Below are positions 1,709-44,700 of a DNA stretch of 64,000 bases, one piece after another. Positions within the stretch are counted from its first letter, which is position 1. Every line of letters starts with the position of its first letter. Location: the NCBI RefSeq assembly GCF_032854445.1, contig NC_088300.1:69478984-69542983 (forward strand). Reading direction: 5' to 3'. The DNA comes from Liolophura sinensis (taxonomy: Eukaryota; Mollusca; Polyplacophora; Chitonida; Chitonidae). Made by a program: the position numbers and the translations under genes. The notes below the pieces were generated by a model. That model saw nothing but the letters and a program-made list of their open reading frames with translations, ran no database searches and was not told the origin of the DNA.

Positions 1709-2042
1709 ATATCCTTGAACTATCCAAAAGCAGTTCAAGTTCGATAGATTTTCGACATTACGTTAAATAGAAAGAGGCAAAAATCAACAAAAACAAAGAA
1801 ATTGTGCTTTGTATCCTTTAAAACTGATTATAATTTTTTACAATTATTTTTGGGTATGAACGAAAAAACCGTTGTCTAGTCGCTGTTTCAAATCTTTGTA
1901 TGGAGCGCTTCTGGATTAATGCGCAAGTTTGAAATTGGGGATATGAATGCTAACAAAAAAAAACATGACCAATGTGACCGCTCCTTTCGATCATAAACTG
2001 GGCAAAATTATACTTTGTTATTAAAGAAAAAGACCATCACTC

Positions 2043-2119
2043 GTGACTCGTAAATGTATGCTTACGGGCCATCAGGAAATGTACGAGTCACTACGTGATG
2101 TGGTGGGGCTAATATAAAG
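2043..2119 (+). promoter_or_regulatory. Core promoter of EF-hand gene A, with inverted AP-1-like pair
   Basis: A TATA box TATAAAG is at 2113-2119, giving an expected start near 2143. A perfect 9-bp inverted pair, GTGACTCGT (2043-2051) and ACGAGTCAC (2083-2091), sits 22-70 bases upstream of the TATA box; each arm contains a TGACTC AP-1-like half. The short noncoding first exon ends at 2164 before GTAAGT. The paralogue also has a TATA box at the same place relative to its first exon, which supports this as a real promoter. Confidence 0.65.
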
Positions 2120-3323
2120 GCAGGTGTGCGAGGTCACAACCGAGTAGTACAGAGGTTTTTCTTGGTAAGTAGTTCTCTGCAATTTCAGCAGGCTTGTTTG
2201 ATAGTTCCAAGTGTGGTCATTCTTTGTTGGATATTTTCTTCATATGGTTCTTTTTATTTTCTTTCATTTTTCATCATAGTTCAACAAAAGCGTCGCCATA
2301 GTTATTTTTTTTCAAAGAAAACTATTCATATATTATGAATTTGTCGGAAAATAACAGGCTTGGTTTGACAAGGCCCATTTTAGTTTTTGAATTAAACATT
2401 TTAAACATGATCAGAACACTTATTTTATAAGCAGAAGTGTCATATTTGTAACTAAATGACAAGGAACATTTTGAAGATGGTTTTTTATACGCAAAAAGCG
2501 AAGCCTTAAGGAATGGACCTGACATAATAGTTCAGAAAGATTTACCAAGAATAGTACTGCTTAATGGATATAACAATAGTGCCCCCCCCTCCAACAACAA
2601 CATTTCTTTCCGTTTTATGTCCTGGACATTTTTCTAATGTGACGTTGAATAAGAAAGATGTGGCGTTAACAGAAAGCAATTTTGTTGGAGTGACATAATT
2701 CATTTGATAGTATCATTTGTGGCCATGTGTCAGTGACATTCGACGACATGCTTTCTTTGGTGATAGGAACAGCAAAATTTTCGTACGATCCCCAAGATAA
2801 TGATATATTGTACAAGTTGGTTTTAATTCAGGATAGCAATCCAGGCTATCTCGATCCTTATCATTTCACCTTTCTTGGTAAACGCAAAAGTTTAGGAACT
2901 GAGTTGCCATTTTAGTGCCCTGGAAGATTTAACATTTGGTTATTGAAATTTTTTAAACGAAAGATCGGTTATTTGGGCTTCCCATGATTTTTGGCTTATT
3001 TTGTGACATTTGGCTTTCGTGTTGTTCTAATATGCTTACGCGTATGGTTGTTGAAATTTAAAAGTTTTAACTGCTCTGAAAGACTCATTATTTTGTCTTT
3101 TATTATTGTGGTTGTCGTCCGTGATAACTTTCATGTTGAAGCTTTATTTCTATTATCCTAAAAAACCGTTATCTCTCTATTTTAGTGGTCATATATATTA
3201 TTCCTTAAGACCCTTCAATCGCCCAAAATATCTACGTATTTGGGCTCTGGTATGATATCTTCGTCTATAGTATTCCTTACCAACCTTAATTTCTCTCCCG
3301 AAAGGTCCATATCTGCAGACAAG

Positions 3324-5790
3324 ATGAACTCGGCAGTCGCATTTCTTTTGTGTGGTCTGGTGGCCTACGGGAGTGCCAGCACCTGTCAGAACATCTGTAC
3401 TCCGGTCTGCACTGGTGGTGCTGCAGCTGGTGGTGCCTTGATTGGGGACATCCCTGGTGCCATCGCTGGTGGTGCTATGTCGGGTGTCTGCAGCCCAGTG
3501 TGCCGGAAAGTCTGCAGCTTGGGCAAGAGAGACGTGGAAGTAAGCAGTTTGATCCATCTAAAACGTTGCCCTTAAATAAAGAGAAACAAACATTCAAAAT
3601 AAACATGTATGTATGTATTGCTTGAGATTCATCAAAGTGCTGCCGCCACTGAAGTATCATTACGCAGACACCAGACATGACACCCATCCAATCACATTAT
3701 TAGTGACACCGGGCCAGTAAGTCCTGTTTCCTTGCTCTAGCTTCTGAATGGTGAGCAACAGGCTCGGCATCAACAAGTACCATTTTTAAAGTCTGTGGTT
3801 TGACCCGACACGGATTTGATCCCAGGTCTCCCGACTTTGATTCTGACCCTCTAACCACCAGCCACCGAAGCGGTTTTAAAAATGTAGTAAACAGCAAAGA
3901 CCATTGAAAACCGTATCTAAAAAAAGTCTTTAAATATTGTTTTCCATTTATTGCTACGTGTCCTGAAATGTTTGGATTGTAAGGTGGTGGTTTGAACTGT
4001 AGCCCACTATTAACAGTTCAATAACCTAAACCAACTTCTTCTGTACTTTATGGCGGGGTCTGAATAAAAGTTTTGTGAACTTAATACAAGTGCTAGAAAA
4101 AAGCGAATCTGACTATAAATGCCTGTTTTAGGGATAGACAAATGGTTGTTTGACGTCACTGGAGAAAAGGCAATTTCAGATACAGTGAGAATCTTTCATC
4201 CGATGTTTCTTGAAGGAGCAGTATTCGTAATTACCCGCTTCTCTATACAGGTTCCTGAAAAATGTTTAAGGATAAATTATTTATGGAGACAAATTATAAG
4301 TGATAAAAGAATTCCTATCTTCACTTGCAAACTCCTGATGCTTCATTGTAGTTGTAGTCAGGGTATTTCAGGTAAAATCAATAATTTCTGAACGCTTACT
4401 TACTGTCATCGTCTTCAAATCTGCATCACGATCTGTATCACGATCTGTACCATGAGAAACATGGGTGATGTACATATAGATCTGCCTATATTTGACGCAG
4501 TAAAATATCTTTATATGAATAGGAAGGCTTTCATATATTTATATGAATAGGAATCTTTCATATATTTATATGAATTGGAAGGATTTCATATATTTATATG
4601 AATAGGAAGGCTTTCAAATATTTATATGAATAGGAAGGCTTTCATATATTCATATGAATAGGAATGGCTTCATATATTTATATAGAAAAAGGAAGGTCTT
4701 CATATATTTATGAATAGCAAAAACAATGTACATGTTTTCAATTTTTATCAGTTAATATCAGTGGCACTTTAATATTCAGCTTAAAATGAGCTTCTTGGGT
4801 GTTTTCAGACTTGGTTCGAGACTGTTTTCCCATCACATATCAGTGACTATGATCTGAACGGTGATGGACAGATCTCCCTGAAGGAGTTCGCTTCCGGTTT
4901 CAAGGGGGACCACTTGAATTTCGCCACACGTCACGTATTCCACTTGTCTGACAGAGATGGTATGATGAGATGGTCTTTAGCACTGGTCGATCATAGTGTA
5001 GTTATTTAGCATGGTCATTTAGACTCCCATACAAAAAGCATCATACACAAATACATTTCTTGCTGAGGGATCGTATAATTTTTTCTTAAATTTTTCCTTA
5101 GATTTTTTCCGATCGGCTTTCAACAACTGCAGTTTTGTGGCAGACTTTCATTTCGCTGTTTCACCTGTGCCCTACCCGGTTTCCTCCCATGCTGGCCGCC
5201 GTCTTATCAGTGAAATATTCTTGAGTTCGGCGTAAAACACCAATTAAATAAATAAATCATTTAAACGTCGACATTATTAGCGAGTATCGCTTGTTTGAAG
5301 CTGGCTGTTGTAAATATCTCACCGCTAGAGTAATTTTGTTCAAGAGTTATTGCCCTTAGATCGGTCGAATTGAGTGCAGCCAGTTATGTATGTACGATCA
5401 AAGGCGTCTACACCAATGTCCAAATATGAATTAACAATGGAATGGAGAAAACTTTATCGAATTTCATTTGTTTTTTTAGTAATACTGATAAATTTGTCAC
5501 CTCCACCAGATTGCTTGTGCACAACAGATTAGTAGAAAGGGGCTCTCGATGGTTCAAATGGTTAAAGAGTATAGCGTTTAACACCTAAGAACAAACCAGT
5601 ATATTGTGCACAGTGTGTCTTGACCAATCCACATATTCGTTATCCAGGACCCGCCAAACAACGATATGTAGTTTTCCGAAATGTAGCTGTGTTGAAAGTC
5701 AGAGGAGCTGATATCATGACGTTTTGTTTTTCAGGTGACGGATTCATGTCCGCCTTGGAGTTGGCCCGTGCCCCTCTTCGCTTCGTCTAA
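3324..5790 (+). CDS. Secreted cysteine-rich EF-hand protein, copy A (4 exons, 140 aa)
   Basis: Exons: noncoding about 2143-2164; 3319-3539 (ATG at 3324); 4809-4959; 5735-5790 plus 3' UTR with AATAAA at 5812. All junctions are GT-AG and the phases match (0, 1). Seen in the product: a signal peptide (residues 1-19, ending GSAS); a symmetric Cys region, C21-x3-C25-x3-C29 and C56-x3-C60-x3-C64, around a Gly/Ala-rich stretch; GKR at 67-69; then two EF-hand loops, D87-E98 (D-x-N-x-D-G-x-I) and D120-E131 (D-x-D-x-D-G-x-M). Known: such loops bind calcium. Inferred: a secreted calcium-binding protein, perhaps processed after KR. I do not recognise a named family. A tandem paralogue lies 6.4 kb downstream. 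Confidence 0.86.
3640..3875 (-). mobile_element. SINE family B copy (tRNA-headed)
   Basis: Read on the minus strand it starts AACCGCTTCGGTGGC, a tRNA-like A-box region. It continues through a GACCTGGGATCAAATCC-like B-box and the block ending in GCGGCAGCACTTTGATGAA. It aligns with the plus copy at 63624-63905. It sits in intron 2 of EF-hand gene A. Confidence 0.8.
4510..4715. repeat. Minisatellite, ~28-bp unit, about 7 copies
   Basis: The unit is close to TTATATGAATAGGAAGGCTT followed by TCATATAT. Units differ by small indels and substitutions. It lies in intron 2 of EF-hand gene A, about 90 bases before exon 3. Confidence 0.9.
5161..5259 (+). mobile_element. SINE family A fragment (3' part)
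   Basis: It carries CCCGGTTTCCTCCCA, a shortened GCTGGCCGCCGTC, AGTGAAATATTCTTGAGTTC and an AAATAAAT tail. It is 5' truncated and lies in intron 3 of EF-hand gene A. Confidence 0.85.
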
Positions 5791-5819
5791 AGTCTCACCA
5801 TATTTTACTGAAATAAAAG

Positions 5820-6287
5820 ACGTTTTATTTCACTACTCAAGTTTTTTGTCATTTAAAGTTATATATATTTACTTGTCATTCCCTCTGGGCATTTTTAATC
5901 TTGAACTACCTGGAGTCTAAGGCAAGGTTAGTATCTTCCACTTATAAAAAATAGGTCAGGAAATAGGTCAGTTAAATTGTTGGTGTCGTTGATGCTGTCA
6001 GAAAGACATGTGGTCTTCAACGAATGTTAGACTGTGCAAAACAGACCCACGAGTGCCTTCGACTATTTACTTCACCAATGTCCCATCAATGACAGCGGGA
6101 GTGCAGAAATCAATACATAGTATGTCCAGTCAGAGACACAATTCCTAAAGTTCGAATAATTTCTTTATAATTGTAAAGGTTTAATGTTATCAATTTTTCA
6201 ACAATGAAGCTATTGAAAGAAAAGAAATCATCAGCAAAGCAAATTTCGACCAGCAAAGTTTAAGTTCAAACTCAATTTGATAGTACA
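5820..6287. other. Intergenic, nothing recognised
   Basis: This is AT-rich sequence between the poly(A) region of EF-hand gene A and a family B SINE. No frame of interest and no repeat structure was seen. Confidence 0.6.
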
Positions 6288-6545
6288 AACCCGGGTCGGG
6301 TCATACCGAAGACTTTAAAAATGGTAATAGTCACGCTTGATGATGAGTACTGAGCGGTTAGAGCAAGAAAACATGGCTGGTTCGCCCGATGTCAGTATAA
6401 TTTAACTCGGTGGGTTGTCATGTCTAGCTATTGTCTTCGGCATGATACTTTAGTGTCGGCAGCACTTTAGTGGCATAGACTAGCCCTGCCACAAGAAGAC
6501 ACAATATGTATATACGAACACTTAACGACTACTTGTGGTGATATG
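6288..6545 (+). mobile_element. SINE family B copy, 5' truncated
   Basis: It begins inside the head at CCCGGGTCGGGTCATACCG and keeps the GACTTTAAAAATGGTA block, the GGCATGATACTTTAGTG block and the CACTTAACGACTA block near the 3' end. It lacks the CATA tail seen at 63.9 kb. Confidence 0.75.
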
Positions 6546-7847
6546 ACTGAAAGGTGGATAAGTATATTTAAACCTCAAGCATACACACACGAATGCATGC
6601 AATTTGATAGTATAATTCCTCATAAGTTGAAGACTAAAATGTATTGTGCGGGAAGGGACATATATGAACTTGCCAGACATCTAATAAGTACCTATATCAG
6701 ATAACATCCCTTTTTATGCCGAAATATTCCCTATTTCTGGGATTGAATTTTTGAAAATTTCAGGTATGTCTTATTTATCCAGTAAGGTATGAGAAAACAT
6801 ACTTTCTTGTATCTCCAGTATAAAAGGAATTTTTTTGGCTTATTTTGGTATGCATGTAATGGATGATTTTGCAAGTTTTGAAGAAATGATGACTGTAGGA
6901 GGTATTTTGATTTTTAGATGAGAAGTTCTAATGACAAACTGAATATTTTGGGGCGTTTCTATTTATTCGACACGGTAGATTTGACTGAGTGGTCTCCCTT
7001 TTAAGCGCATGAGCTACTCCATTCCGATGGTAAATAAAGTAAAGCACTTTAACCCGAAATTTCTCCCGCTCATTTACCTAAGGCAACATATTCATTCACA
7101 ATCAAAATAAGTGCTTCGTTTTTAAACAAAAAGCTGTTACAGCTTAGAAACGGGCTTGATGTTTATTGATAAAACTGTCCTTAGTATCCAAAGGGATGTA
7201 TGTATTATTGTGATTATTTTTGTTTATATTGAGTGTAAACGTATTAACAATGGTAAACATGTCACATGTTTACATAAAAATATTTATTATAGTGAAGACG
7301 TTTTCATCTTTATTGGCTTTCTACACTTAATAAAAACACAAAATCATGCTTACTGAACGATTTGTGTCCATTGGAATTATCCTTCACATTACTGTGTAAA
7401 CATCTGACCGGTCTACTACTTGTATAATAAATCTCTCCAGTTACCAAAGATAGTTTTAACCAGGACACCAGGGCGTGTTTAAACAAAGCACTTAGTTTAG
7501 TGAGTAAAGGTTAGAGGGCAAAATGTATCCCGTTCAGTTCGCAGGAGTAAATAAAGCTTGGTCGAATCGTTCTGATTCATATCTCAATTTGACAAAAGTT
7601 ATCAAGCATCTTCCAAGTCTGAAATATCACCAATATCATCATGGAAACTTCCCGTCTAAATTTATGTCTATTACAGTGTGTGCTGTTTGTCTTCATTTTT
7701 TGAAGTTTCCCTTATCATGGTCTCTTTGTGATGATGAAATCGTGGTGTTGTCAGCGGAGAGCGAAATATAACGCATTCATTCGATTTCATACAGATTGTG
7801 GAGATTGGCGTAATCAGTTCAAATTGTCTCATCTAGAGCATTAGATG
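6546..7847. other. Intergenic, no gene recognised
   Basis: Open frames of 66 and 82 codons (7156-7356 and 7523-7771) have no recognisable motif, no hydrophobic leader and no splice context. I regard them as chance frames. Confidence 0.55.
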
Positions 7848-7914
7848 AGGCTGTATGTTTTCGTATAAGTGAAATGAGTACGGGGTGAAACATCAGTCAA
7901 ATAAATAAATAAAT
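7848..7914 (+). mobile_element. SINE family A fragment
   Basis: Only GTATAAGTGAAAT..GAGTACGG.GT.AAAC.TCA.TCAAAT and the AAAT tail remain, with an internal deletion in the 3' block. Confidence 0.7.
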
Positions 7915-8286
7915 CCAACACATAATCTTATATACAAAATATATGACTATTTTTTAGGAACTGGTTGACGTATTTTGAAACCGGTGTCACCTGTCTAGGT
8001 TACACATGCGCCTCAGAAACAGGGTCACATACATGACGTGCCTACTGCATATTCTTAGAGAGGCCTTATCTTTACCAGATGCTAAGATCTCATCAAACCT
8101 TTCCATATCTTAACTTTCACTGTTGTGGAACAGTGAATCCCGCAATGGCAATATGTACCACTCATGATATTAGCACTCAAGGTCACCTGATAACTTCTGT
8201 ATGTGTGTAAACTGTATTATGTATGCATTAGTTCTACAGACGAATGTAAGCTAATTTTCATTTAAGCTACGTTCATTTTGACTCTT

Positions 8287-8508
8287 AGCGCGCTGGCGCA
8301 GCGTAATGACCCAGGAGTCTCTCACCATTGCACTCGTTGTGAGTTCAAGTCCAGCTCATGCTGGCTTCCTCTCCGGCCGTACGTGAGAAGGTTTTCCAGC
8401 AACCTGCGGATGGTCGTGTTTTTTCCGCCCACCATAATGTTTCCCGCCGTCGTATAAGTGAAATATTGTTGAGTACGGCATAAAACATCAATCAAATAAT
8501 AATATTAA
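8287..8508 (+). mobile_element. SINE family A copy, near full length
   Basis: It has the tRNA-like head GCGCTGGCGCAGCGTAATGA, B-box TGAGTTCAAGTCC, TGCTGGCTTCCTCTCCGGCC and the 3' GTATAAGTGAAATATTGTTG block. It lies upstream of EF-hand gene B. Confidence 0.9.
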
Positions 8509-8696
8509 TCATTTTGACTCAACAGTGATTTCATTTATTTTGATTTATATTGCCTTAGTCAGGTGCTGGCCTATCAAATATCGTCAAATCATTATGTGCC
8601 TGTTTTGCGTCATCTTTCATCGATTTCTTTAATAAAATGGAATCAAAAGTGTAAGAATGAGTGGAAGTGATCTGGAGTAAGATATATCTATTTAAA

Positions 8697-8895
8697 TGAT
8701 GATGTTTAACGCCGTACTCAAGAATATTTCACTTATACGACGGCGGCTAACATTATGGGTTGAGCAAATCGGAGAGAACCTGAAGAAAACCCACGACCAT
8801 CCGCAGGTTGCTGCAGGATCTTCTCGCGTTAAACCGGAGAGGAAACCAGCAAGAGGTCAACTCGCAGGTGTCATTGCGTCACGGAGGCCTCGTCT
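8697..8895 (-). mobile_element. SINE family A copy, minus strand
   Basis: The reverse complement of the family is clear: ACGCCGTACTCAAGAATATT, CGACGGCGGC, CCCACGACCATCCGCAGGTT. With the plus copy at 8287-8508 it forms a tail-to-tail inverted pair about 190 bases apart. A 77-codon open frame here is SINE sequence. Confidence 0.88.
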
Positions 8896-8899
8896 GACT

Positions 8900-9372
8900 G
8901 GAGTAAGATACATAACAATAAAGATATAATAATGTGTGCTATCGAATCCTTTGGATGACACTTGAGAATTAACATTTACTTAAATATTATATGAGTTTGA
9001 TACTAATTTGATCAAATCAAACACTCGACCTTTGCGATTTGAAATAGGCAGCTTCCTATGCTTAATTATAGTGCTGATTCCAAGCACTCATCAGTCTCTA
9101 AACGTATCAAAATCCACCTTCGCCTTCTAGGCAACTCATACGAATAAATCTTTGCATGAGAAGTCTTTGCATGTGAAATACACGAATTAATAACAGAAAC
9201 AGAATATATTTGCGCGATACTTTCCCAATAGAATGATTAAAATAGAGGAGCCTGTTTTAAATTTTCTTAATTTGACAGAATACTGTGGACGTATCAAGGT
9301 AAACATGAATTAAAATAGGTAAAATAGGTATGATTTGTAAATTTACTTTCATGACAAAGAATGTCACAAGAT
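8900..9372. other. Upstream flank of EF-hand gene B
   Basis: This is AT-rich. No ORF, SINE or repeat was recognised between the SINE at 8.7 kb and the GATA-pair/TATA region of gene B. Confidence 0.5.
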
Positions 9373-9373
9373 G

Positions 9374-9423
9374 AGATAAGCAGTGCTCTTATCTATTTCT
9401 TGAAGTTCACAGATAATATAAAA
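9374..9423 (+). promoter_or_regulatory. Core promoter of EF-hand gene B, with inverted GATA pair
   Basis: TATAAAA is at 9417-9423, about 50 bases before the end of the short noncoding first exon (9471, donor GTGAGA). An inverted GATA pair, AGATAAG (9374-9380) and CTTATCT (9388-9394), lies 23 bases upstream of the TATA box. Gene A lacks this pair and has an AP-1-like pair instead, so the two promoters have diverged although exon 2 has not. Confidence 0.65.
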
Positions 9424-9735
9424 GGGTGTGAGTCGTGTGAGAATACAGCCTAAACTGAGGAACACCTGCAGGTGAGAACACGTGCCGCTTTTTGCGCTTT
9501 ATTTCTTTGTGGATCTGAAAGCAGACATTCTACACCAAAATATGCTATGTTCTGGCTAAGTACAATGGCTTTGTTAATCTGAAAAGCGCATGACTTTTAT
9601 TTGTATTTTCAGACTTATTAAATAATGACATTCACTGAAATACAAAATTTGTAAAGCTTGATTATTTCAAATTAAATCGACATTACTTCGATTCATAAAA
9701 GTTATGGGTTTACTATTATATTTCTCGCAGACAAG

Positions 9736-11812
9736 ATGAACTCGGCAGTCGCATTTCTTTTCTGTGGTCTGGTGGCCTACGGGAGCGCCAGTACCTGTGA
9801 GAACATCTGTACTCCGGTCTGCACCGGGGGAACCGCCGGAGGTGGAGCTCTCATTGGGGACATCCCTGGTGCTATCATCGGAGGGGCTCTGTCGGGGACA
9901 TGCAGCCCTGTGTGCCACAAAGTCTGCAGCTTGGGCAAGAGGAACATCGATGTGAGTTCAAAGACTGATGGGGGAACTTTCTACTGTGACCTAAAATCTG
10001 GGCCAAACGCTGAATGATCTAATGTCTATTCATATCTTGGCTATAATGGCCTTTGCCAAAAGATTTAAGTACCATTCATGTATTGCAAGAAAACAATGAT
10101 CAATCCCACTTCGATGCTAGTCGCTAATCCGGAAGGAATTGTACTCATTAATATAACATACTTAAATGTCAATCAGCAAACACATATGGAACAACTCGGA
10201 CTCCTTTGTTATACTGGAAGCGTACCAACGTGCGACATACTTTTTCCCGTTCAGTGGCGGCTCGGGTCCAAGCTGGACCTACCATTGTTCTCTTGCAACG
10301 CATGAGTAATACGTCGCCAGTTTGCCCAAAAAATCACAAGGGCAGGAATGAACAATAGACTAAACACAGCTTGGGCCAAAGTTGCTTCAGGCGGGGAAGA
10401 TTCCCCATTCTAATCAATGGAAGATTAAATAAGGAACAGTTTAACAATGTCTTCGAAAGCTGATTCAGTAAGTTTAAGGAAACCTCGAACAAAATGTTTC
10501 ATTTCAAGAAATTAATGGCATGGAAAATGCTAAGCATACTGACGAGAGATGTGTGAGAAATGAGTGAGCAAGATGATTGGTAGGTGCTCGTTTCTCCACG
10601 GTCTATACTTACTTTATTTATGCTGACAATGATACAGTCTGCAGGAAAGACACACGATTGCCTCGACAGCTGTACTGTGCGCTTTTCACTGTTACTTATA
10701 CATTGACAGTCACGTGTGCAGTTTGATGAAGTCCGATAAAACGAGAGACTTAAAGAAAAAACATTTCATGAGTTACTCTTTAAACATTGTCCATAATAGG
10801 CCACAAGTGTTCCGTCAGAATACATAGACGTGTATTTTAATGGTGTATAATGTTGCCTTATGTTTTAGAGGTGGTTCGAGACCGTCTTCCCTCCACATCT
10901 CACAGACTATGATCTCAACGGTGATGGACAAATCTCTCTTAAGGAGTTCGCTGCTGGTTTCAAGGGCAGCCACCTTGACTTCGCTACCCGTCACATCTTC
11001 CACTTGTCTGACAAGGACGGTATGTAATTTGTTCCGTATCCAACTATTGGTCTGGAAAGTTTTTAGTTTCACAAACTTCTTCAGAATATTTTCCAGAGGG
11101 CAGCGTTTTACATGAATAACAGTAAAAAGTGAAAAGTGAAATGAAAGTGATGCTAATTAAACCGTCCTTTTGTATCAAGCATTTGTATTTATGCGTTACA
11201 TCATGACTTAGCAGCAGGAACGATACACTTATGACTGATCTTCGTCCATGGTGGTTAATGTTTGTATCACCACGATACAAACCGTTTATGCAGTCTATTG
11301 ATCACATGGCTGTTTGTGCAGTCTGTTGCTCACATGGCTGTTTGTGCAGTCTATTGCTCACATGACCGTTTATACAGTCTATTGCTCACATGACCGTTTG
11401 TGCAGTATATTGCTTATTGAAGACCACTTTTCTACTAGCGTGGCGTGCATATATGTGCGGATACTTCCCTTTCTTCCAACCATAAGAATGATCGCCATCG
11501 GAGAAGTGAATAAATTCTTGAGTGTGACGTTAAATAAGCGTCAATCAAATCAATCCAATCAGTTGTGTGAGCAGGTAACGTTTGTGTTTTTGAAGACCAT
11601 TGTTTTACATTACCAGAGCAACAGTATATGTTCAGCGCGTTCCACCCCTAATTAGTCATTATATTAAATCCATGGGCTAGGTATCAGTTCCATTACTATC
11701 TATAGCTGATTTTCTGGAAAATAATCCATATATATTTTCCTATTTCTGTTTGCAGCCGATGGATTTCTGTCTGCCCTGGAGCTGGCTCTTGCTCCCCCTC
11801 AAGTTCAACTAA
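9736..11812 (+). CDS. Secreted cysteine-rich EF-hand protein, copy B (4 exons, 3' frame disrupted)
   Basis: Exons: noncoding about 9447-9471; 9731-9951 (ATG at 9736); 10869-11019; 11756 onward, with AATAAA at 11823. Intron positions and phases equal copy A. The product keeps the signal peptide, the two C-x3-C-x3-C clusters at identical residues (21/25/29 and 56/60/64), GKR at 67-69, and EF-hand loops 87-98 and 120-131. In the last exon a CCCCC run has one base more than the aligned copy A. The frame therefore misses the stop at 11810-11812 and stays open to 11908-11910, beyond the poly(A) signal. Either the assembly has a homopolymer error or this copy has a changed or non-stop C-terminus. 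The coordinates given end at the homologous stop. Confidence 0.76.
11285..11416. repeat. Minisatellite, 28-bp unit, ~4.7 copies
   Basis: The unit is close to TTTGTGCAGTCTATTGCTCA plus CATGACCG, with perfect 28-base spacing from 11285 to 11397. It lies in intron 3 of EF-hand gene B. Confidence 0.92.
11487..11560 (+). mobile_element. SINE family A fragment (diverged 3' end)
   Basis: A diverged AGTGAATAAATTCTTGAGTG..GTTAAATAAGCGTCAATCAAAT block. It lies in intron 3 of EF-hand gene B. Confidence 0.6.
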
Positions 11813-11849
11813 GTTCAGTGAAAATAAAACTTTTGTTCGGACATAAACA

Positions 11850-12900
11850 AAGTAAGTCTTGTTTTTGTCTTTGGTTCCCGTTTAAGTCGACAAGGCCTGC
11901 TTTGTGTTAAAATTGCTCTATAAAAACCAATGCGGATATGCAGCAGGAATAAAAAAATCGCAAATCTGTGTTTGGGTATGTGAGCAAAAAAAGGGAAAAT
12001 TCGCGAGGGCGATGTCTTAACATCCAACATAACAGATAATGTTTGTTAAACTTCCTCTAACAATCTTTAGTCCATTTTGCACAGTAGAAGAATAGTGAAA
12101 ATGATTGAAGGAATCATCAGGGTCATTAAAAAATTTAAGCTTTATGTTCTGCGAAAATGCCTGCAAAATATCAGAAGTCAAAATAAACTGATTCTGCTAT
12201 GCACTGTAAATACATGTATATGTGTGAGTAGTACATTATATATCGCTGGGGGTGAGGAAGGTTACACAAAACTTTGAAGTAAGCCACTTTTTTCTTGTGA
12301 TGGGTTCTGTCTTGTATAAATGTAGTACATTACTCCAAGTTACTGTGCTTTTTTTCCTTTTTATAGTCAAGTACCAGCTAGCCTAAGACAGAAATGTGTT
12401 GCTACTTCGAAAAACGCAGCTCAGTAAATTGTAATGGGAAGCCTGTAGCAAGAGAGACAATTTTGCTCAATAAACCTAAAGTTAGTAAAGTCAAAATGTA
12501 AATAAATACACTCTCAACGGCCGAAAATTGTCTAAATGTCAGTTGAGAGTTTCACTTCAAGATCAAACCCTGTACCAGAAGTGTTTTGTTTTGTGGTAAA
12601 CTGTAAAAACAGGTGTTCTCTTTCCACACCCACACATATCGTGACTTCGTGTTCCATCAACGAATTAAAGTCTATTGAGAAACAACGAAAAGGTGACAGG
12701 GAGCCCATTGGGTCAACACCAGAGTCTTTTTTTATGGTATATTTTAACACTGACGGAAATTTTCGGGTTGTAAGTGGACTGGATCAAACATTTCAGCTGG
12801 GTGATCTCCCCTTAACTGGATTAATATCCACTTTTTACAATAATAACATTATCCATATTATCATGTTATTAACGGCTTAATACCAGGACCGTAAAGCAAG
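11850..12900. other. Downstream flank of EF-hand gene B, no gene recognised
   Basis: Open frames of 66-114 codons exist on both strands (for example 12077-12277 and 12536-12880), but they overlap one another and show no motif or leader. I leave them uncalled. Confidence 0.5.
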
Positions 12901-13805
12901 CGAGCGATAAAATTCCGCCACAGTAATGCACGAAGCATTGTAGCCCGAATGGAGGATGACTTTTCTACCCTCTCTAGACTGGACGAAATGAACACCTTGC
13001 TGCGTATGAAATATGATTATGATGTGATTGGAGTGAGTGAAACGTGGCTTGATGAAGGGATTTCGGACGAAGAGGTGGGGCTACCAGGGTATTACATTGA
13101 ACGTAAGGATAGGAATCGGCATGGTGATGGCGTCGCAATTTATATAAAGTCCCCATTAAATGCAGTTCGTAGGAAAGATCTGGAAAATGATACCGAAATG
13201 GTATGTATTCAAACTATTCAATGTTCTAAAAACGTTCTATTTGCCACCTGTTATAGGACACACAAATGAAAAACTCATGTAGGACAACAGTTCCTAGACA
13301 AGTTCGAACACACTTTATCATCAATGCTATTGGAAAACTCGGAATGTATTGTTATTACGGGAGATTTCAGTGATCGTTGTTATGACTGGTATGGAGGTCA
13401 TGAAGGCAGTGAGCTGAAACTGGAACTCTTTGACCTAGTAACTGGACAAAATTACTCTCGGATAATTAATGAACTAGATACACTGATAATACTGCTAATG
13501 TTCTCGACCTTATAATAACTGACAGCGTTGGGTATATAACAGAATCCGGAGTATGTACTCCCCTAGCTAACCTAGATCATAGCACTATCTACTGTTGTGT
13601 GGATATCCCATGTAGCTCAAAGCCCCAAGCATTTATACGTTATGTTTGGGATTACAAATGTGCCGACTGTAGGGCTTAAACATAGCGCGAAGCCAGATTC
13701 CATGGATTACTGTATTAGACATCTTCGATAGCAATGATGACAAGGTTTATGCTTGGAGTTCTCTGAAAAAAAAGTGTCCATCGACGTGCTGCATAAGTCT
13801 GCACT

Positions 13806-14889: not shown

Positions 14890-15865
14890 AGGGGCAAAGA
14901 GATCTTGGCATTAATTACTCGAGTGGATAATCGATCGATATTTATTAATCACATTTGAAAATACAAACATTCCGGCGAATCTGCAAATATATCTGTAGTG
15001 CGAGCGCGCCGCTCTGATTCTCTTCCAATAGACCGTGGTTCTGTTTGGGGAGAAATATTTATGCGACGTAGCTATTTAATATTAATAGACACATTTATCT
15101 GATTAACCAAACCAGTGATACTGTATGTAGTTAACAGTAGCATGAATCTGTCCTTGCACGACTTACTAAAGCGATTGCATCACTGGGCTCAGCTCTGGTG
15201 GCTGGGCTTGAACAGATTGCAAGTGGTTAATATTTGTTTCATATTGGTGAACGCTGATGTACGTTTGGCACTAAAGGTATGTGTGTAAAGTGGTCTCACA
15301 CAGTGGGGCCACATGTGGGGTGAGATGTGATACAATGTTACTGAATTCGGGAGAACAGGAATTGGGGTTGCTAGGTTTGGGGTGGGGTTGGAGTTGGGTT
15401 AGTGGATAGGGATAAATTTCGGAAAAAAGAGCTTATATCAAGCTTCATATTGGTTAACACCGATGTACAGTGGATGCTAAATTCTTGGTGAAGGCATGTG
15501 TTGAATGACTCAATGTCACAGAATTTGGAAAGAGGACAGAAATGGGGTGGTGCTGGTGGGGGCGATTCTGTGCAGGGGAATGATTGCAAGCACACAGAAA
15601 TATTGTCTTATATATATTCTTATATTACTTTTTATTGCACGTAAGCTGTCCTTCAAAATTAAACAAGAACACGAATACACGAACACAAATATAGACTCTA
15701 ACGATTCACACAAATTAACAGTGGATATGGTGATTCTCATGGAAATCAGTGTAAACCTTGCTAAATCAGAGAATTAAAACCACAATGTGTACTGGCGGGC
15801 AGGCAATAGAATGAGGCAATAGAATGATTTACGTGGAATCCAGCATAAATTACCACGGATATGTC
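14890..15865. other. Intergenic up to the assembly gap
   Basis: There is a G-rich run of GGGG/GGGT blocks around 15362-15400. Two loosely similar stretches (about 15230-15310 and 15440-15550) share CATATTGGT.AACGC.GATGTA and G.TGTGT.... wording, and look like an old partial duplication. No gene was recognised. Confidence 0.45.
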
Positions 15866-16065
15866 NNNNNNNNNNNNNNNNNNNNNNNNNNNNNNNNNNN
15901 NNNNNNNNNNNNNNNNNNNNNNNNNNNNNNNNNNNNNNNNNNNNNNNNNNNNNNNNNNNNNNNNNNNNNNNNNNNNNNNNNNNNNNNNNNNNNNNNNNNN
16001 NNNNNNNNNNNNNNNNNNNNNNNNNNNNNNNNNNNNNNNNNNNNNNNNNNNNNNNNNNNNNNNNN
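15866..16065. other. Assembly gap of 200 N
   Basis: Exactly 200 N. The round number suggests a placeholder of unknown true size. An (AT)n tract begins 52 bases later and may explain the break. Confidence 0.98.
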
Positions 16066-16116
16066 CGCGTCACCACCACAACGCTCGGCATCACTCTAGC
16101 TAAAGAAGGAATCACC

Positions 16117-17814: not shown

Positions 17815-20800
17815 CTATCGGCAACTGCTGTCTAAGTGCTCAGTATTTTTTGAACTCTTCGAAAAGGCGACTGGCTCCATTATCTTGTTACAACGACAGC
17901 ATACCTTCCTGAAGAAGTCGCGAATTTCCTCGAGCTTGGCGGCGTAGATGAGGGGATTCAGCAGGCTATTCATACAACCCAGAGCCACCAGAACGGTAAA
18001 CAATGGAAAACTTGTCTGGTTAGGATCACGACCTATCGATGCCCCGACCAAACTGTATAGACCTGAAACAAGAAAAGGGAACCATTGACCAGGACAGGAT
18101 TAGAGGTTAAAGTTCAGCCAGGCATATCAGAGAATCGTATCAGTGTTGCAAGATCCTGATACACAGAAATGTCAATCAAAATCATCCAAAAGAACAAGGT
18201 ATTAAGCCTAACGCTTTTCCTTGCCCGTCATCAAGCTATTCGTATAATTTGACTACATTCCGAGAGGTGAAGCACAGAAAGAAGAATTAATGTTTTCAGG
18301 ACATATGATAAAACGTTGATGTAATGGTGAGCCTTAGTGCGTTTTATGGCAGAACAGATGTAGTGCGGATGTATGCAAAACAATAATCATGGTAAGCCTA
18401 GTTTGAACTGAGTCGCCATTTCACGGGAACGGTGTCCTTGTGTTATGGTCCCTGCAAAGATTTGGAGTTGTAACGTTAATTTTTAATTTTGTCATAAAAT
18501 GGTAGGCTCGTGGTATTAACATGAGATGTACCAAATAAGATTGTTTTGAAGCTAAGATTACAACCAGCTTAAGACAACCTTTAAGACGCCTTCACAATCC
18601 CCCGCTGAACAACATTGAATGGTGACAGAGCTAGCAGTGTTCATCAAAGACAAGCCCCGGAGATGCACGCTTAGTTTTCGACACAGGTAGACAAATCTTT
18701 GGCATCCACATTGAGGCTGTTTTCATCAAAGATTTTTCAGTGGGACTAAACTTTAAGTGAGCTTGAGCCTTCACCTAAAGACGGCTTAGTGAAAAAAAAA
18801 AGACAGCAATTCGGTCATTGTACTTACAGCAGAAGTTAACTGTTAAAGTAGGTAGGCGAGTTTTTCTTGACAGAACCAGTGCTCTGGTAGTTCTGTCTGA
18901 GATACAAAATATAGTTTCCGATCGACGGCAATAAAACCGACATTAAAAATCACAATGCAAGTAGCTACCGTCACTGAGCGTAGTATGCATAAGCCAAAAT
19001 CTTTCTGGTTGGCTGCTAAGCAACCTGAACGTTTATAAAGCAGTCTTTGTAGTAATTAGGCTTGTTTGTATGGCCTCGGTTCCACGGTCCATTGTGACTC
19101 GAGGAAAATCGCTCAACGACACGCAAGACTCTCGCTCTGTGTTTTTCTTTGATTTCTTGAATCGGCTATCTGTACATTATGTGACAAAATTGTACATGTG
19201 TAGATCTCCAACTGTATGAAATCTCTGACAGCAAGCTTGTATGTCTCATAATATATGGCACAACCAAACTATTGCAATTAAGTCTGTTTGTTTGTATGGT
19301 CTCTAATGACACCTCACCAAGCGAAGGGAAGCTTAGCGACGCTTACTAAATGCCACTGGCCTCATAGAGCCAACCCCCCTAAGGGCTGATTTAAATGACC
19401 TCGCTTTTACTATTGTTATGCATTTGCGTATAAAACTGCAGACAGCGCTCATAGCTGGGTGAATCTGGAAAGGAAAGGGAATCTCCATTGAGAGCAATTA
19501 TACATCACACAGAAGATAATAGTTTTGACGTCATTTAGGGCCTGGTCAATCTTTATCATTGTATACTTCCGCGTTATTGTGCAGATGTGCCGGTTATCCG
19601 CTCAACTAATAAGGTGTCACACCTGACTATGGTTAGGAGGACACTCAAAAAATGGATCTGTTAATTTTAACGGAAAGTCTGTTGTCTGAGTAATGCTAGA
19701 ATGTGTTCTGCTATTATAGCAGATAGTTCTGTTAAATATAACAGACATATTCTATTAATTCAACATAAAGATTCTATTAGACTAACAGGATATCATGTTG
19801 GATATGACAGAATATTATGGTATTATAACAGAATACATTCTAGCATCACTCAGACAACAGAATTCTATTAAACTTAACAGATCAATTTTTTGAGAGAAAC
19901 AAGAATGTTTCTGTAGGCTGGCCGCTATTGTCATCATGGCACATGTCCATATGAGACAGAAAAATGTGTTATGCTAGGAGTTTTTGCTAGATTAAATGCA
20001 ACGCTTGTTATAGATATGCTTTAATGCTGTAACAAGGTTACAAAGATTCATTAACAAGATCATTATGAGTTTTACTGACATGCGTATTACAGGCAAATGT
20101 GGTGAAATAAAATGTGATAAGCCCATAAATCAATTACATTTAAAAATTACACGTAAATTTCTTTAAATGGAGATCAGGATAATGTACAAGACATTTCCTC
20201 AGAGTGTTAACACAAATATGTGATGTATCTATCTGTGACACCTGTAAATATTTCATCTGTGAAGGACATTCGTGTACATACCGACAGGTAACCAACAGAA
20301 TAGGTACGCTCCAATAAGCATGAAAATGGAGCGCATGATTTCGGTGGCTTTTCTCAGCTCCCTCTTCTTTGGGCCGTCTCTAGATTGCTGTACCTCTATC
20401 CGCCTCCGGTGCTGTCTCGATATTAAATAGAGTTTTGTGTAGGCAACAATCATACAAAGGGCGGGAATCATTCCAACGGTAAAGTTAAAGATGATATAGC
20501 TGGAAGGGTAGTGCTCCAAAAATATTAGCCTGGTCACGTTTGGGTTATACCATCCCATAAGAGGTAAAAACCCGAGGACTACGCACACTGTCCAGGTGAT
20601 AATACACAGAATATGGTGAGTCCGGGTCGTCACCAATGCGGTGTAACGTAAATGCATGGCCACTTTCAAATAACGGTCAATGGTAAGATAGTTTAGAAAG
20701 AAAGCAGAAGCCACCAGAAAGGCGCAGATAAATCCCATTCGAAAATGGTATTCCTTCGCGTTGTGCGAATCTAATATATTTAGAACAGCAACGTAGCACA

Positions 20801-21053
20801 CGAAAATCCCTGTGAAAAAGTCAGATGTTGCCAAGTTCTGGATGAAAACGTTGCCTGCAGCCTCTCTCACTTTCTTTTCCTTAATGAAGCCAGTGATAAC
20901 AATACCATTCATTACGATTATTGTTAAGCCAACAAAAAATAACCCAATGTTTATGAGGAGATCCATGGACGTCAGCGGGACTGTGTTATCATCGACACTT
21001 AAGGCTGAACTGTTAGTAGTGTTACCCTCCATAACGTTGATTCTGTACGACAT
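17815..21053 (-). CDS. Rhodopsin-class GPCR, adenosine-receptor-like (2 exons, 339 aa)
   Basis: Exon 1 is 21053-20282 and exon 2 is 18062-17815, joined GTATGT..TTTCAG in phase 1. Seen: N-glycosylation sites near residues 11-15; TM1 about 32-56; TM2 67-92 with NLATSD; TM3 ending in DRY (126-128); HLRYTALVT after it; TM4 ending PLMGW; TM5 185-211; TM6 ending FCWLPV; TM7 with NPLIY in exon 2; and a cytoplasmic CCRC that may be palmitoylated. The LRY..LVT and GW signatures are those of the adenosine/MECA group, so a small-molecule ligand is plausible, but the ligand is not known. Odd: Tyr replaces the conserved TM3 Cys and ECL2 has no Cys. A second in-frame Met is at residue 8. An orphan receptor related to adenosine receptors is the safest name. 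Confidence 0.93.
18063..20281 (-). other. Intron of the GPCR gene
   Basis: The 2.2-kb intron has a clean donor (GTATGT) and acceptor (TTTCAG). It contains one palindromic MITE (19644-19894) and otherwise no coding similarity. Confidence 0.85.
19644..19894. mobile_element. Palindromic MITE, ~251 bp, long terminal inverted repeats
   Basis: The left end CTCAAAAAATGGATCTGTTA and the right end (reverse complement CTCAAAAAATTGATCTGTTA) pair over about 75 bases. The arms share TCTGTTGTCTGAGTAATGCT then AGAATGT.TTCTG. The centre is rich in CTGTTA/TAACAG motifs. No coding capacity. No convincing target-site duplication was seen. It lies in the GPCR intron. Confidence 0.85.
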
Positions 21054-27853: not shown

Positions 27854-28603
27854 TATTCCGCTGGTGTCTGTTATTACGTCCTACTTATAGATGATAAATA
27901 TCAGAATATTAAATATTCTGATGTTTAATTGAATTCCACAGATGCGGTTCTTAACCCAAGTCCTGACCGATACAGAACTAGTAGGGTGACCGGACAGAGT
28001 TTCTCTTCTTTTGCTCTGAAGAGTATTTATTAGTGGTGTAACCCATTGAAATTTTCAAATATCTTCAGTAAAACAATGGATTTTAAGTTTAGCGTGAAAT
28101 ACTTAAGGCATTAAGAAACTATCAATTAGTGTAGAAAAAAATGGATCATAACCTCCAAGATATTGCATTGAGGAAATTTTATAAAAAGATATTCCTTGAA
28201 CTCATTTGTAATTGGGGTTCCTGACTGAACATACCTTCATTAGGATAAGGCCTTCTTGCTTTTAAGAAAGACTGCTTTTAAGAATCAAAATCGCACAATA
28301 ATTAATGTTCAAAAGAAAAGAAAAGAACCTCTGGAAGAACCTTTTAAAAATGTGCTTAATAAAATACAAATTAACCAGCACTTTTTGCTTAGTACAAATA
28401 ATAAATGATTTTCCTTTAAAACAGTGTTTTGATAAGCACATGAAAATGTCATTATAATGCTAGATATTTAACACCAGTTGTTTTAGTACAGGTATTTTAA
28501 TGAGACTCATAAGTCGTATAAGTAAAATAAATGAACAAAATTTAGGGAAGAGAAATGTAAAATGAAGCTAATGGCCATTTAGTCTACCTCTTCATATACT
28601 TAC

Positions 28604-29354
28604 AAACTGGCGACCAGCACACAATGAGGGCTCCAGTCATGAACAAAATGGATTTCAAAATCTGTCCACTTTTCCTGGCTTCGGAGTTGCCTGGTGTGTT
28701 TTGGCACTGGGTGGCGATCTGCTTACGATGCTGATTTGATATCATGTACAACTTGATGTATGCCGAGATGATACACAGCAAAGGTATCATCCAGCCTATC
28801 GTAACATTCATTATGATATATGATGGTGAGAATGTTTCAAAAAATCTGTAGCTCTTGACAATCGGTCTGTGCCACCCGAAGATCGGGAGAAAACCCAGCA
28901 GCAGATAAAATACCCAGGCTGCGAGACACAGGTAAAGGTGTTTTCTTGTGGTTACTAAGGCCACATATCGCAGGTGCATTGCTACTTTAAGGAAACGGTC
29001 AATCGTAAGCAATGTGAGGAAGGATGAAGATGCAACACAAAAACTGTTCGTCATCCCCATTCGCAGGAGGTATTCATAGTAGTTTTCAAACTTACACAAG
29101 TTAAGAATGGCGACATAACACACAAATAGCCCGGTCAGGGTGTCTGAAATAGCTAGGTTCAAAATGAAAACGTTCCCTTGTGTATTCCGGCATTTTTTGT
29201 CCTTTATGAACCCAGCAATGACAATGCTGTTCAAAATGACTACTGTAATTCCCAATGAACCAAAGATTAATTGCACGACAATTTCCGCTACAGACATGGT
29301 CAAGTTGTTTTCCAAAGCTCTATCCATGGAAGAGTTGTTTGTGTTGCCGTACAT
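28604..29354 (-). CDS. GPCR exon, TM1-TM6, paralogue of the 17.8-21.1 kb receptor (no own TM7 exon found)
   Basis: An open frame of 250 codons plus one base ends at CCAGTTT|GTAAGT, a strong donor in the same phase and place (after CWSPV) as the neighbour. Seen: N-terminal NNSS glycosylation sites; TM2 with NLAISD; TM3 ending in DRF rather than DRY; HLRYVALVT; TM4 ending PIFGW; TM6 ending CWSPV. It lacks the TM3 Cys and any ECL2 Cys, like its paralogue. Known: a class A receptor needs TM7 to function. No NPxxY exon was seen in the 7.5 kb downstream. It may splice to the phase-compatible exon at 18062-17815, splice to an exon I missed, or be a partial duplicate. No stop or frameshift is present within the exon. 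Confidence 0.82.
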
Positions 29355-41700: not shown

Positions 41701-44700
41701 GAACTCACAGCGACCGCATTGGTGAGAGGCTTCTGGGTCACTATGCTGCGCTAGCGCGCTAACCAACGCGGTATCTTGGGTCTTGGGTATCAATGAAACC
41801 TACCTGATTCTCTTTGCATGAAACTGTCTTAGTTTCGTGCTTTGTGTAGTTTATTAGTTCTTTAGTGGTTTGTTTTTAACGTTGTTTTGAGTTTGCCCTT
41901 GCGATCATGGACGTAGAACGCCCTTTACCTTTTGAAGCCTAGATTCGTTGCAAATGCTCTTGACAATCTCGCAGCATTTCCACCTGAAGTTTGGAATTCA
42001 TATTGCCACCATGTAAAGAATGTGTTTTGTCTGAGTGAACTACTGAAAGGAGAAAGTAGTCTATATTGGTTTGTTTGTCGAAGGCACTGCGGAATATTTC
42101 ATTTTTTTACAACATTGGTCGTGTTTGTAGAACTCGAAAATCACAAAGAGCTCGGGAAAAAGGCCCCGTCCTTTTCAAAGCATCCTACAAAACTTCTGAC
42201 TTTAAGCCCCAAACGATCCAGCAGAAAGTTATTTGCGTTACAATATTAGAGATTATATTTAAATAAATTACACATTTAGTGGGAAATGTTCGGGGGAAAC
42301 CGAAGTGTCCGGAGAAAACGGTCGATCTTTGCCAAGTAATATTTTCTGAAAGGCATCAAATTGTTTATTCTTGGTAAACAGTGAAAATTTGTCATGATTA
42401 GCGAATATGTATTTTTTGCCTCTTTAATAGATAAAGAGTATACCTAGGGTATTCGCCCTGACCAGATTCAAGTAACGTGTTGACTGGAACATGCACCGTA
42501 CCTGACTGCCCTTTGGGATATGATACCCTCGAAAGGTGACATCTTTGACCGTCGTTCCTGGAACAGATATAGGCAGCGTTGAGTGGAATCTAAACACCTC
42601 TATCATAGTGGCCTCTGTGTAGGGCATGTCTTTACGGTCGTTCATTCTGGGCTCACGGTCAGTCCCCAGTACACGGTCTATCTCAGCCTGGATCTCTCGC
42701 TGTATTTCCGGGTGATGTACGAGCACCAGTATCAACATTAGCAAGAACATCTTCGTGCTTTGTACTCCTGGAAAGTGATATATAATGCTATGATTTCAGT
42801 AATAACACCACACCAAGAGCGAAAAACCGAAGATGAGTGTTTAAGTCAATACCATTAACTGGTGTTCAGTAGACACCTTTCGTCAACACTGTTTTCAAAC
42901 CTCTTTCTGAACACCGCTTGTCAACACCCTTTCTAAACACCGTTTGCTACAGATATTGAGAAGGCATTTCTTCAAAATCTTTTCAGGAAAGGGTGCTCAG
43001 TAGTGATTGAAATCTTTTGTCAAAACCCTTGCTACACAATTTTGAATGTCGTATAACAATTTGGCGTTCTACATGAGGGATGAAATTTAATTACATTCTT
43101 TCCGACAGGATTTTTAAATTAGGATTCACAAATTATTAAATCCGCTTGAAAAGAAAAATTGCTGTATCGGGGACCTTAGCAAATAATACGTAAAAATGCA
43201 AGCTTTCATTTTGTTAATATCACTGGTATTGATTGCAATATATTTTCTACAGGCTGTACAGAAAACCTTGTCATCTATTCAAGTTGTAAATGTCTTTCAG
43301 AAACAAATGCAGCAAAGATCTGTTCAATCCAGGTCTTTATTAATTAATTACATGCAAACGGTTAATGACAATGGACTTAGGGGACATGTAATCACATTAT
43401 AGATGATATGAAGATAATAACGCCTATCCCACATCCAATGACTGTTCAGCGTTTTAACTGGTTCATCACATACAGTTTTTTATTGCTTGTGTTTAATGTC
43501 AGTGTAATTATTATCACTATTCAAGATATACGATTTATTTATTTATTTATTTACTTGATTGGTGTTTTACGCCGTACTCAAGAATATTTCACTTATACGA
43601 CGGCGGACAGCATTATGGTGGGTGGAAACCTGGCAAAGCCCGGGGAAAACCCACGACCATCCGCAGGTTCAAGATATACGAAGCACAGGAGGTTGTAAGA
43701 TAGATACATATTCCTATAGCACTTTCGACCTAGTGAAAGAATGATAACGACTTAACTTCAGCACAACTTAACCCACTAAATGTTAGGATTTATTACAGTG
43801 TAGTAGGCACGCTTTAAAAGAACCGGTTGTCATTAGATGAGTTCAATTCTTTTGAAGTTACAATATTTCCCTCCTTAGATGTTTAGCGATGTTTATAGGA
43901 AGTCTTGAGATTGATTCAACCAGAAGACCCAATTAAAACGCCACTGACACAAGTTTAATTAGTTTGTGTCAGATCTGTTCAAAGTACAATATTCGCTTCC
44001 TTGGAGGGTATTTGTTGGCTGCGCACAACGTTTACAAATATATTCGTGAGCATATATGTGTAAAAGTGACACGGACTGGGCCAGTGGATTGGACATACTG
44101 AGGGACAGGAAAGATTCTCTATCCCCGTTGGCAAACATTCTCGGAATACTGAACTGTATTTTCCATGCTGACCACGTTATACTCTTTACTCATGATTAGC
44201 ATTAGAAATGGGTTTCATGTAGGTGTATACTGCGATAAGTAAGCTTCAGTCTAGCACGCAGATTAACCTGGTGTATCCCATCATTTATTACTTCGGTTTA
44301 GAATTGCTATTGATTCAGAACTGTGCCATTACATCGAGGTATTGGCGGGATTATGTAGATAGCTAACTAAACCAGTATACAAGCTCACGTTTTTTGAGCA
44401 CCGGTTCAAGTCAGCGAGAGGAGAATCGTGTAGCACAATGCTATTACTGGTAAGGATAACTAGGAATATTGCGCTCACTGGGAATATTCAGCTTGTAAAC
44501 TTGTAGAATATGGCTTACAGTCAGTATTTGCTTAAACTTAAATGGTCCCCTTAAAAATGGTTGTCAAACAAAGAAGATATGATGATATTATACATTCTCG
44601 ACAGTAGCAACTTTCTTGTAAATCAAATATTTATTTAGAGTCTAGAAATATTCTCAGTCACGTTTAGGAGACAACCAGACACGTGGCAACCATAATGCAT

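Follow-up and report, generated by a model that had tools for sequence, protein, structure and literature searches.

The 64,000-nucleotide window analyzed here, the whole stretch of the Liolophura sinensis genome at positions 69,478,984 to 69,542,983 of contig NC_088300.1, contains two tandem genes on the plus strand (copy 1 and copy 2). Each is predicted to encode a small protein with a signal-like peptide, a cysteine/glycine (Cys/Gly) module and two EF-hand loops, and the product of copy 1 is 140 residues long. The features of the two genes, in window coordinates, are as follows.

2113 to 2119, plus strand: TATA box of copy 1 (TATAAAG), putative promoter element
2140 to 2164, plus strand: putative 5' noncoding exon of copy 1, placed by eye with an uncertain start; GT follows at 2165
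3324 to 3539, plus strand: coding exon 1 of copy 1, with the signal-like peptide (residues 1-19), the Cys/Gly module (21-64) and GKR (67-69)
4809 to 4959, plus strand: exon 2 of copy 1, with EF loop 1 (residues 87-98) and the beginning of EF loop 2
5735 to 5790 (coding to 5787), plus strand: exon 3 of copy 1, with the remainder of EF loop 2 and the C terminus; stop codon at 5788-5790
5812, plus strand: AATAAA of copy 1
9417 to 9423, plus strand: TATA box of copy 2 (TATAAAA), putative promoter element
9445 to 9471, plus strand: putative 5' noncoding exon of copy 2, placed by eye with an uncertain start; GT follows at 9472
9736 to 9951, plus strand: coding exon 1 of copy 2, with the signal-like peptide, the Cys/Gly module and GKR
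10869 to 11019, plus strand: exon 2 of copy 2, with EF loop 1 and the beginning of EF loop 2
11756 to 11910, plus strand: exon 3 of copy 2 as assembled, with EF loop 2 and then a frame diverging from copy 1; the end is derived from the codon count
11823, plus strand: AATAAA of copy 2

The intron borders in both copies are AG and GT. A preliminary description of this DNA had given each gene four exons; three coding exons were found, while the fourth is a putative noncoding exon placed by eye, suggested by the donors downstream of the TATA boxes together with an AG-ACAAG before each ATG. That description also ended copy 2 at 11812, which did not hold: the TAA at that position is not in frame, and the assembled frame runs for 173 codons, past the AATAAA. 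As assembled, copy 2 departs from the frame of copy 1 close to the C terminus, ahead of the expected end. This part of the window also carries repeats. Tandem arrays with a period of 28 bases and differing units lie at 4505-4711 (intron 1 of copy 1) and 11281-11414 (intron 2 of copy 2), and repeats resembling short interspersed elements, with a tail of the type 'gcgtaaaac..caatcaaataaataaa', were seen by eye at 901-990, 5180-5260, 8290-8510, 8700-8900 and 11500-11550.

The tandem pair had been taken for a two-gene family. The pair stands within the window, but a third relative was found on the same scaffold, on the minus strand near 60,463,797-60,464,001, 9 Mb away (copy 3). A whole-genome search with exon 1 of copy 1 as the query gave at least four matches at at least three places, with five of five candidates scored. 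Copy 3 is diverged, and its exon 1 lies in two frames as assembled; the six module cysteines, a GGALIGD stretch and the Lys-Arg pair are nevertheless kept. Exons 2 and 3 of this copy have open frames, both EF loops are intact and fit the EF-hand pattern, and by alignment the donor context of the putative noncoding exon of copy 2 resembles that of copy 3.

The proteins of copies 1 and 2 are about 82% identical (81% in exon 1 after the signal, 82% in exon 2), and their six module cysteines and two EF-hand loops occupy matching positions. Counted over codons 1-136, the differences at codon positions 1, 2 and 3 were 18, 10 and 48, with a nonsynonymous divergence (dN) of 0.103, a synonymous divergence (dS) of 0.755 and a dN/dS of about 0.14; the last four codons were excluded because the frame of copy 2 departs there. 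The ratio was about 0.11 in exon 2 and about 0.19 in the post-signal part of exon 1. For copy 2 compared with copy 3 it was about 0.18 and about 0.31 in the two pieces of exon 1, and 0.08 in exon 2; between copies 1 and 3, dS was not estimable in exon 2. When bases 2000-5900 were aligned with bases 9300-11950 at an expectation value (E) of 0.01, exons 1 and 2 only were recovered, and the introns and the short exon 3 gave no alignment. The non-aligning introns together with the low dN/dS argue that the proteins are under constraint. The gene pair is real and belongs to a constrained family.

The cysteines of both window proteins stand at residues 10, 21, 25, 29, 56, 60 and 64. As had been reported, each protein carries C-x3-C-x3-C twice (21/25/29 and 56/60/64), and GGALIGDIPGAI is present in the linker of both; the six module cysteines are common to all three copies, spread over the two frames in copy 3. 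A double C-x3-C-x3-C with a gap of 10-40 residues appeared in 3 of 200,000 shuffles of the 53 post-signal residues of exon 1, and is thus far above chance for this composition. In a six-frame scan of 273,901 bases in 22 sequences (the window, a 9.9 kb region that contains copy 3, and 20 flanking loci), the double pattern occurred three times, in the two genes and in one simple repeat; copy 3 escapes such a scan because its exon 1 is split over two frames.

Two further ideas about the module gained no consistent support from comparison with shuffled sequences, generated under a simple model of our own. For the proposed mirror symmetry, the mirror identity of the linker was matched by 5.2% of 5000 shuffles in copy 1 and by 86% in copy 2. 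Since C-x3-C-x3-C is its own mirror and the linker scores are not consistently above those of shuffles, the symmetry is not demonstrable; the whole-module mirror scores of 7 and 9 are values computed without a shuffle control. The four-step GxxxG run that had suggested a glycine zipper was reached by 11% (copy 1) and 17% (copy 2) of shuffles. An AlphaFold model from two sequences placed helices at 2-6 and 39-47 of 53 residues, with an unreliable mean predicted local distance difference test score (pLDDT) of 53.9, and is too weak to show helical hairpins in the module.

As for known families, the preliminary description had recognized none for this architecture. None scored above its cut-off for the module, but there is a named neighbor below threshold: Pfam C_tripleX (PF02363) matched exon 1 of copy 1 at E 6.8e-4 and 20.1 bits, under the cut-off of 22.9, and the full proteins scored 17.5 and 13.5 bits. 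Matches to Pfam Conotoxin_I2 (E 0.59-3.8; 8.2-10.7 bits, cut-off 27) were rejected as noise. A PDB search with the module gave nothing better than E 0.28, and its sole matches, Gly/Ala stretches of prion protein (2 at E 0.28 and 1.5; 36 at E 0.28-9.7), were attributed to composition.

Both window proteins start with MNSAVAFL and stay hydrophobic and signal-like up to about residue 19, as read from the sequence. With the EF-hand pattern, each gave two matches, starting at residues 87 and 120. Two intact loops had been claimed in separate exons; the two loops are there, but loop 2 is itself split by an intron, the exon 2/3 junction falling inside the codon of its position 4. EF-hand_1 (2.4e-9 and 1.6e-8; 36.5 and 33.9 bits against 25.4), EF-hand_5 and EF-hand_6 were above their curated cut-offs. 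By loop pattern, with acidic ligands and Gly at position 6, and by Pfam cut-off, the proteins belong to the EF-hand family and are predicted to bind Ca2+. Absent from the preliminary description was a Lys-Arg pair after the module in all three copies; copies 1 and 2 have it as residues 68-69. The residues around it vary (GKRDVE, GKRNID and EKRGTG), giving GKR in copies 1 and 2 and EKR in copy 3, and the border between exons 1 and 2 lies three codons past it. The retention of Lys-Arg in all copies makes processing possible.

The EF part matched calmodulin residues ~49-108 in the PDB, with a best E of 5.8e-8 (among the best 60 of 265 sequences up to E 1). With EF-hand pair proteins (PF00036, PF13405, PF13202; calmodulin-type lobes) the chiton proteins share two canonical 12-residue loops whose starts are 33 residues apart. 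They differ from calmodulin-type proteins in carrying two loops where those carry four, a signal-like N-terminal stretch, the Cys/Gly module ahead of the loops and one intron-split loop. Calmodulin itself, a cytosolic protein with four EF-hands and no signal peptide, is ruled out by the two loops and the hydrophobic N terminus. Peptides of the alpha-hairpinin type have paired C-x3-C motifs across a linker, as the chiton module does, but in the module each arm holds three cysteines, the Gly/Ala linker is long, and the fold is only weakly modelled.

The C_tripleX proteins, of which the nematode APPG proteins are an example, share the C-x3-C-x3-C spacing and probable secretion, and two stretches were matched in copy 1; the chiton module differs in that the triplets are parted by a Gly/Ala linker, EF-hands are attached and the score is under the cut-off. 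PMC4232772 describes APPG proteins as prion-like PQN proteins in which cysteine makes up 9% or more of the residues; in copy 1, cysteines account for 7 of the 140. According to the same paper, the C_tripleX-bearing APPG group of C. elegans forms the pharyngeal cuticle, 27 of 29 having predicted signal sequences. The cuticle is a possible functional analogy for the chiton family.

Searches for relatives elsewhere were negative. Translated searches (tblastn) with both proteins against the 20 flanking loci, which span 200 kb (100 kb ahead of the window plus 50 kb to each side of the copy 3 region), gave no match at E up to 1. Degenerate patterns from the module alignment gave 34 matches in viral contigs and 36 in prokaryote genomes, none of them confirmed in either set; both are poor targets for an animal gene, and the evidence is weak. 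Rfam gave no match at gathering score in the window. No comparable protein was found in the literature, as judged by titles and the openings of abstracts, and none of six short module-derived peptide strings occurred in the literature searched, which covered few subscription journals and excluded supplements. PMC11359391 lists an EF-hand protein of 214 residues from the salivary gland of a snail. The EF half is ordinary, and the combination of a Cys/Gly module with EF-hands looks unusual but modest.

Taken together, these results point to a small family of secreted, extracellular Ca2+-binding proteins in the chiton, with a role in mucus, cuticle or mineral matrix, a reading to which we give a probability of about 50%. 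After removal of the signal peptide, the 44-residue Cys/Gly module would form internal or intermolecular disulphides and may act as a compact anchor or cross-linker that multimerizes the protein, while the EF-hand pair, with its canonical loops, would hold Ca2+ in mucus, cuticle or a mineral-associated matrix. Ca2+ is abundant outside marine cells, which suggests a structural or assembly site instead of a signalling switch. The reading is backed by the signal-like N terminus directly before the module, the EF loops, the kept cysteines, the low dN/dS, and a TATA box and AATAAA at both window genes. The earlier proposal of a secreted calcium-responsive protein thus keeps its sequence support, in the N terminus, the EF-hand scores and the lack of a closer PDB match for the module, but the glycine-zipper and mirror ideas have no support above composition.

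Several observations weigh against this assignment. The Lys-Arg behind the module is as compatible with cleavage as with an intact two-domain protein, and the pair models EF-hand_7 and EF-hand_8 were below their cut-offs. The 152 bases examined ahead of copy 3 held no TATA match. A one-base length difference within the coding region in two of the three copies means that one or two may be non-functional. The terms EF-hand and calcium-binding had no occurrences in the main texts of two papers, on chiton radular teeth and the A. granulata genome (PMC6351634, PMC7850002), which therefore lend no support to a tooth or shell role.

A possible but doubtful alternative is that the proteins are precursors, in which a prohormone-type cut after Lys-Arg would free a six-cysteine Cys/Gly peptide, whose C terminus would be amidated in copies 1 and 2. 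The EF pair would then be a fragment of its own, and may aid folding or sorting along the secretory path, which is rich in calcium. Gly-Lys-Arg is a textbook amidation signal, and it is present in these two copies; Lys-Arg itself is found in all three, with the exon border close behind it. Copy 3 has no Gly before Lys-Arg, however, constraint is stronger on the EF half (about 0.11 against about 0.19), unlike in a throw-away part, and just three related sequences are at hand. That the EF-hand pair acts specifically in the calcium-dependent folding or sorting of the released amidated peptide is a much longer shot than the cleavage itself.

It is unlikely that the family is decaying or marginal, with copy 1 alone making a protein and copies 2 and 3 being recent pseudogenes. 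Such decay would account for the lack of a stop before the polyadenylation signal in the assembled copy 2 and for the frame change within exon 1 of copy 3, but the remaining exons, splice borders and cysteines are intact and the substitution patterns show constraint. According to PMC11068029, the high-fidelity (HiFi) coverage of the assembly is ~14x, so that one-base assembly length errors are plausible. Very improbable is a membrane-active defence peptide whose hydrophobic Gly/Ala-rich center would enter membranes between disulphide-braced ends: the core is mildly hydrophobic and GxxxG-spaced, but that spacing is no more than composition yields, the module net charge (+1 in copy 1, -1 in copy 2) is unlike that of typical cationic defence peptides, and the module has no family match above cut-off.

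Elsewhere in the window, two rhodopsin-family receptor-like frames lie on the minus strand at 20253-21053 and 28584-29354 (Pfam 7tm_1, 1.2e-27 and 2.6e-24); judged by eye the two resemble each other, and they probably represent a pair of receptors in tandem. Two frames resembling cytochrome P450 exons (Pfam p450) were observed at 42424-42750 and 55950-56573, both on the minus strand. Downstream of copy 2, 12949-13269 on the plus strand matched the endonuclease/exonuclease/phosphatase family at 1.5e-6 and is perhaps a retroelement remnant. An open frame at ~15774-16115 reads as a run of X, indicating a stretch of N in the window.

At present, this is a gene family described at sequence level in one genome. 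Chitons are studied for their shell plates, sclerites and iron-bearing teeth, and, if expressed, the genes would add a small, defined family to the secreted proteins of these animals. Should the EF-hand pair prove to act as the folding or sorting part of a precursor, it would represent a new type of peptide precursor. Compact and testable, the combination of a Cys/Gly module with EF-hands is a candidate either for extracellular assembly that depends on calcium or for an unusual peptide precursor.

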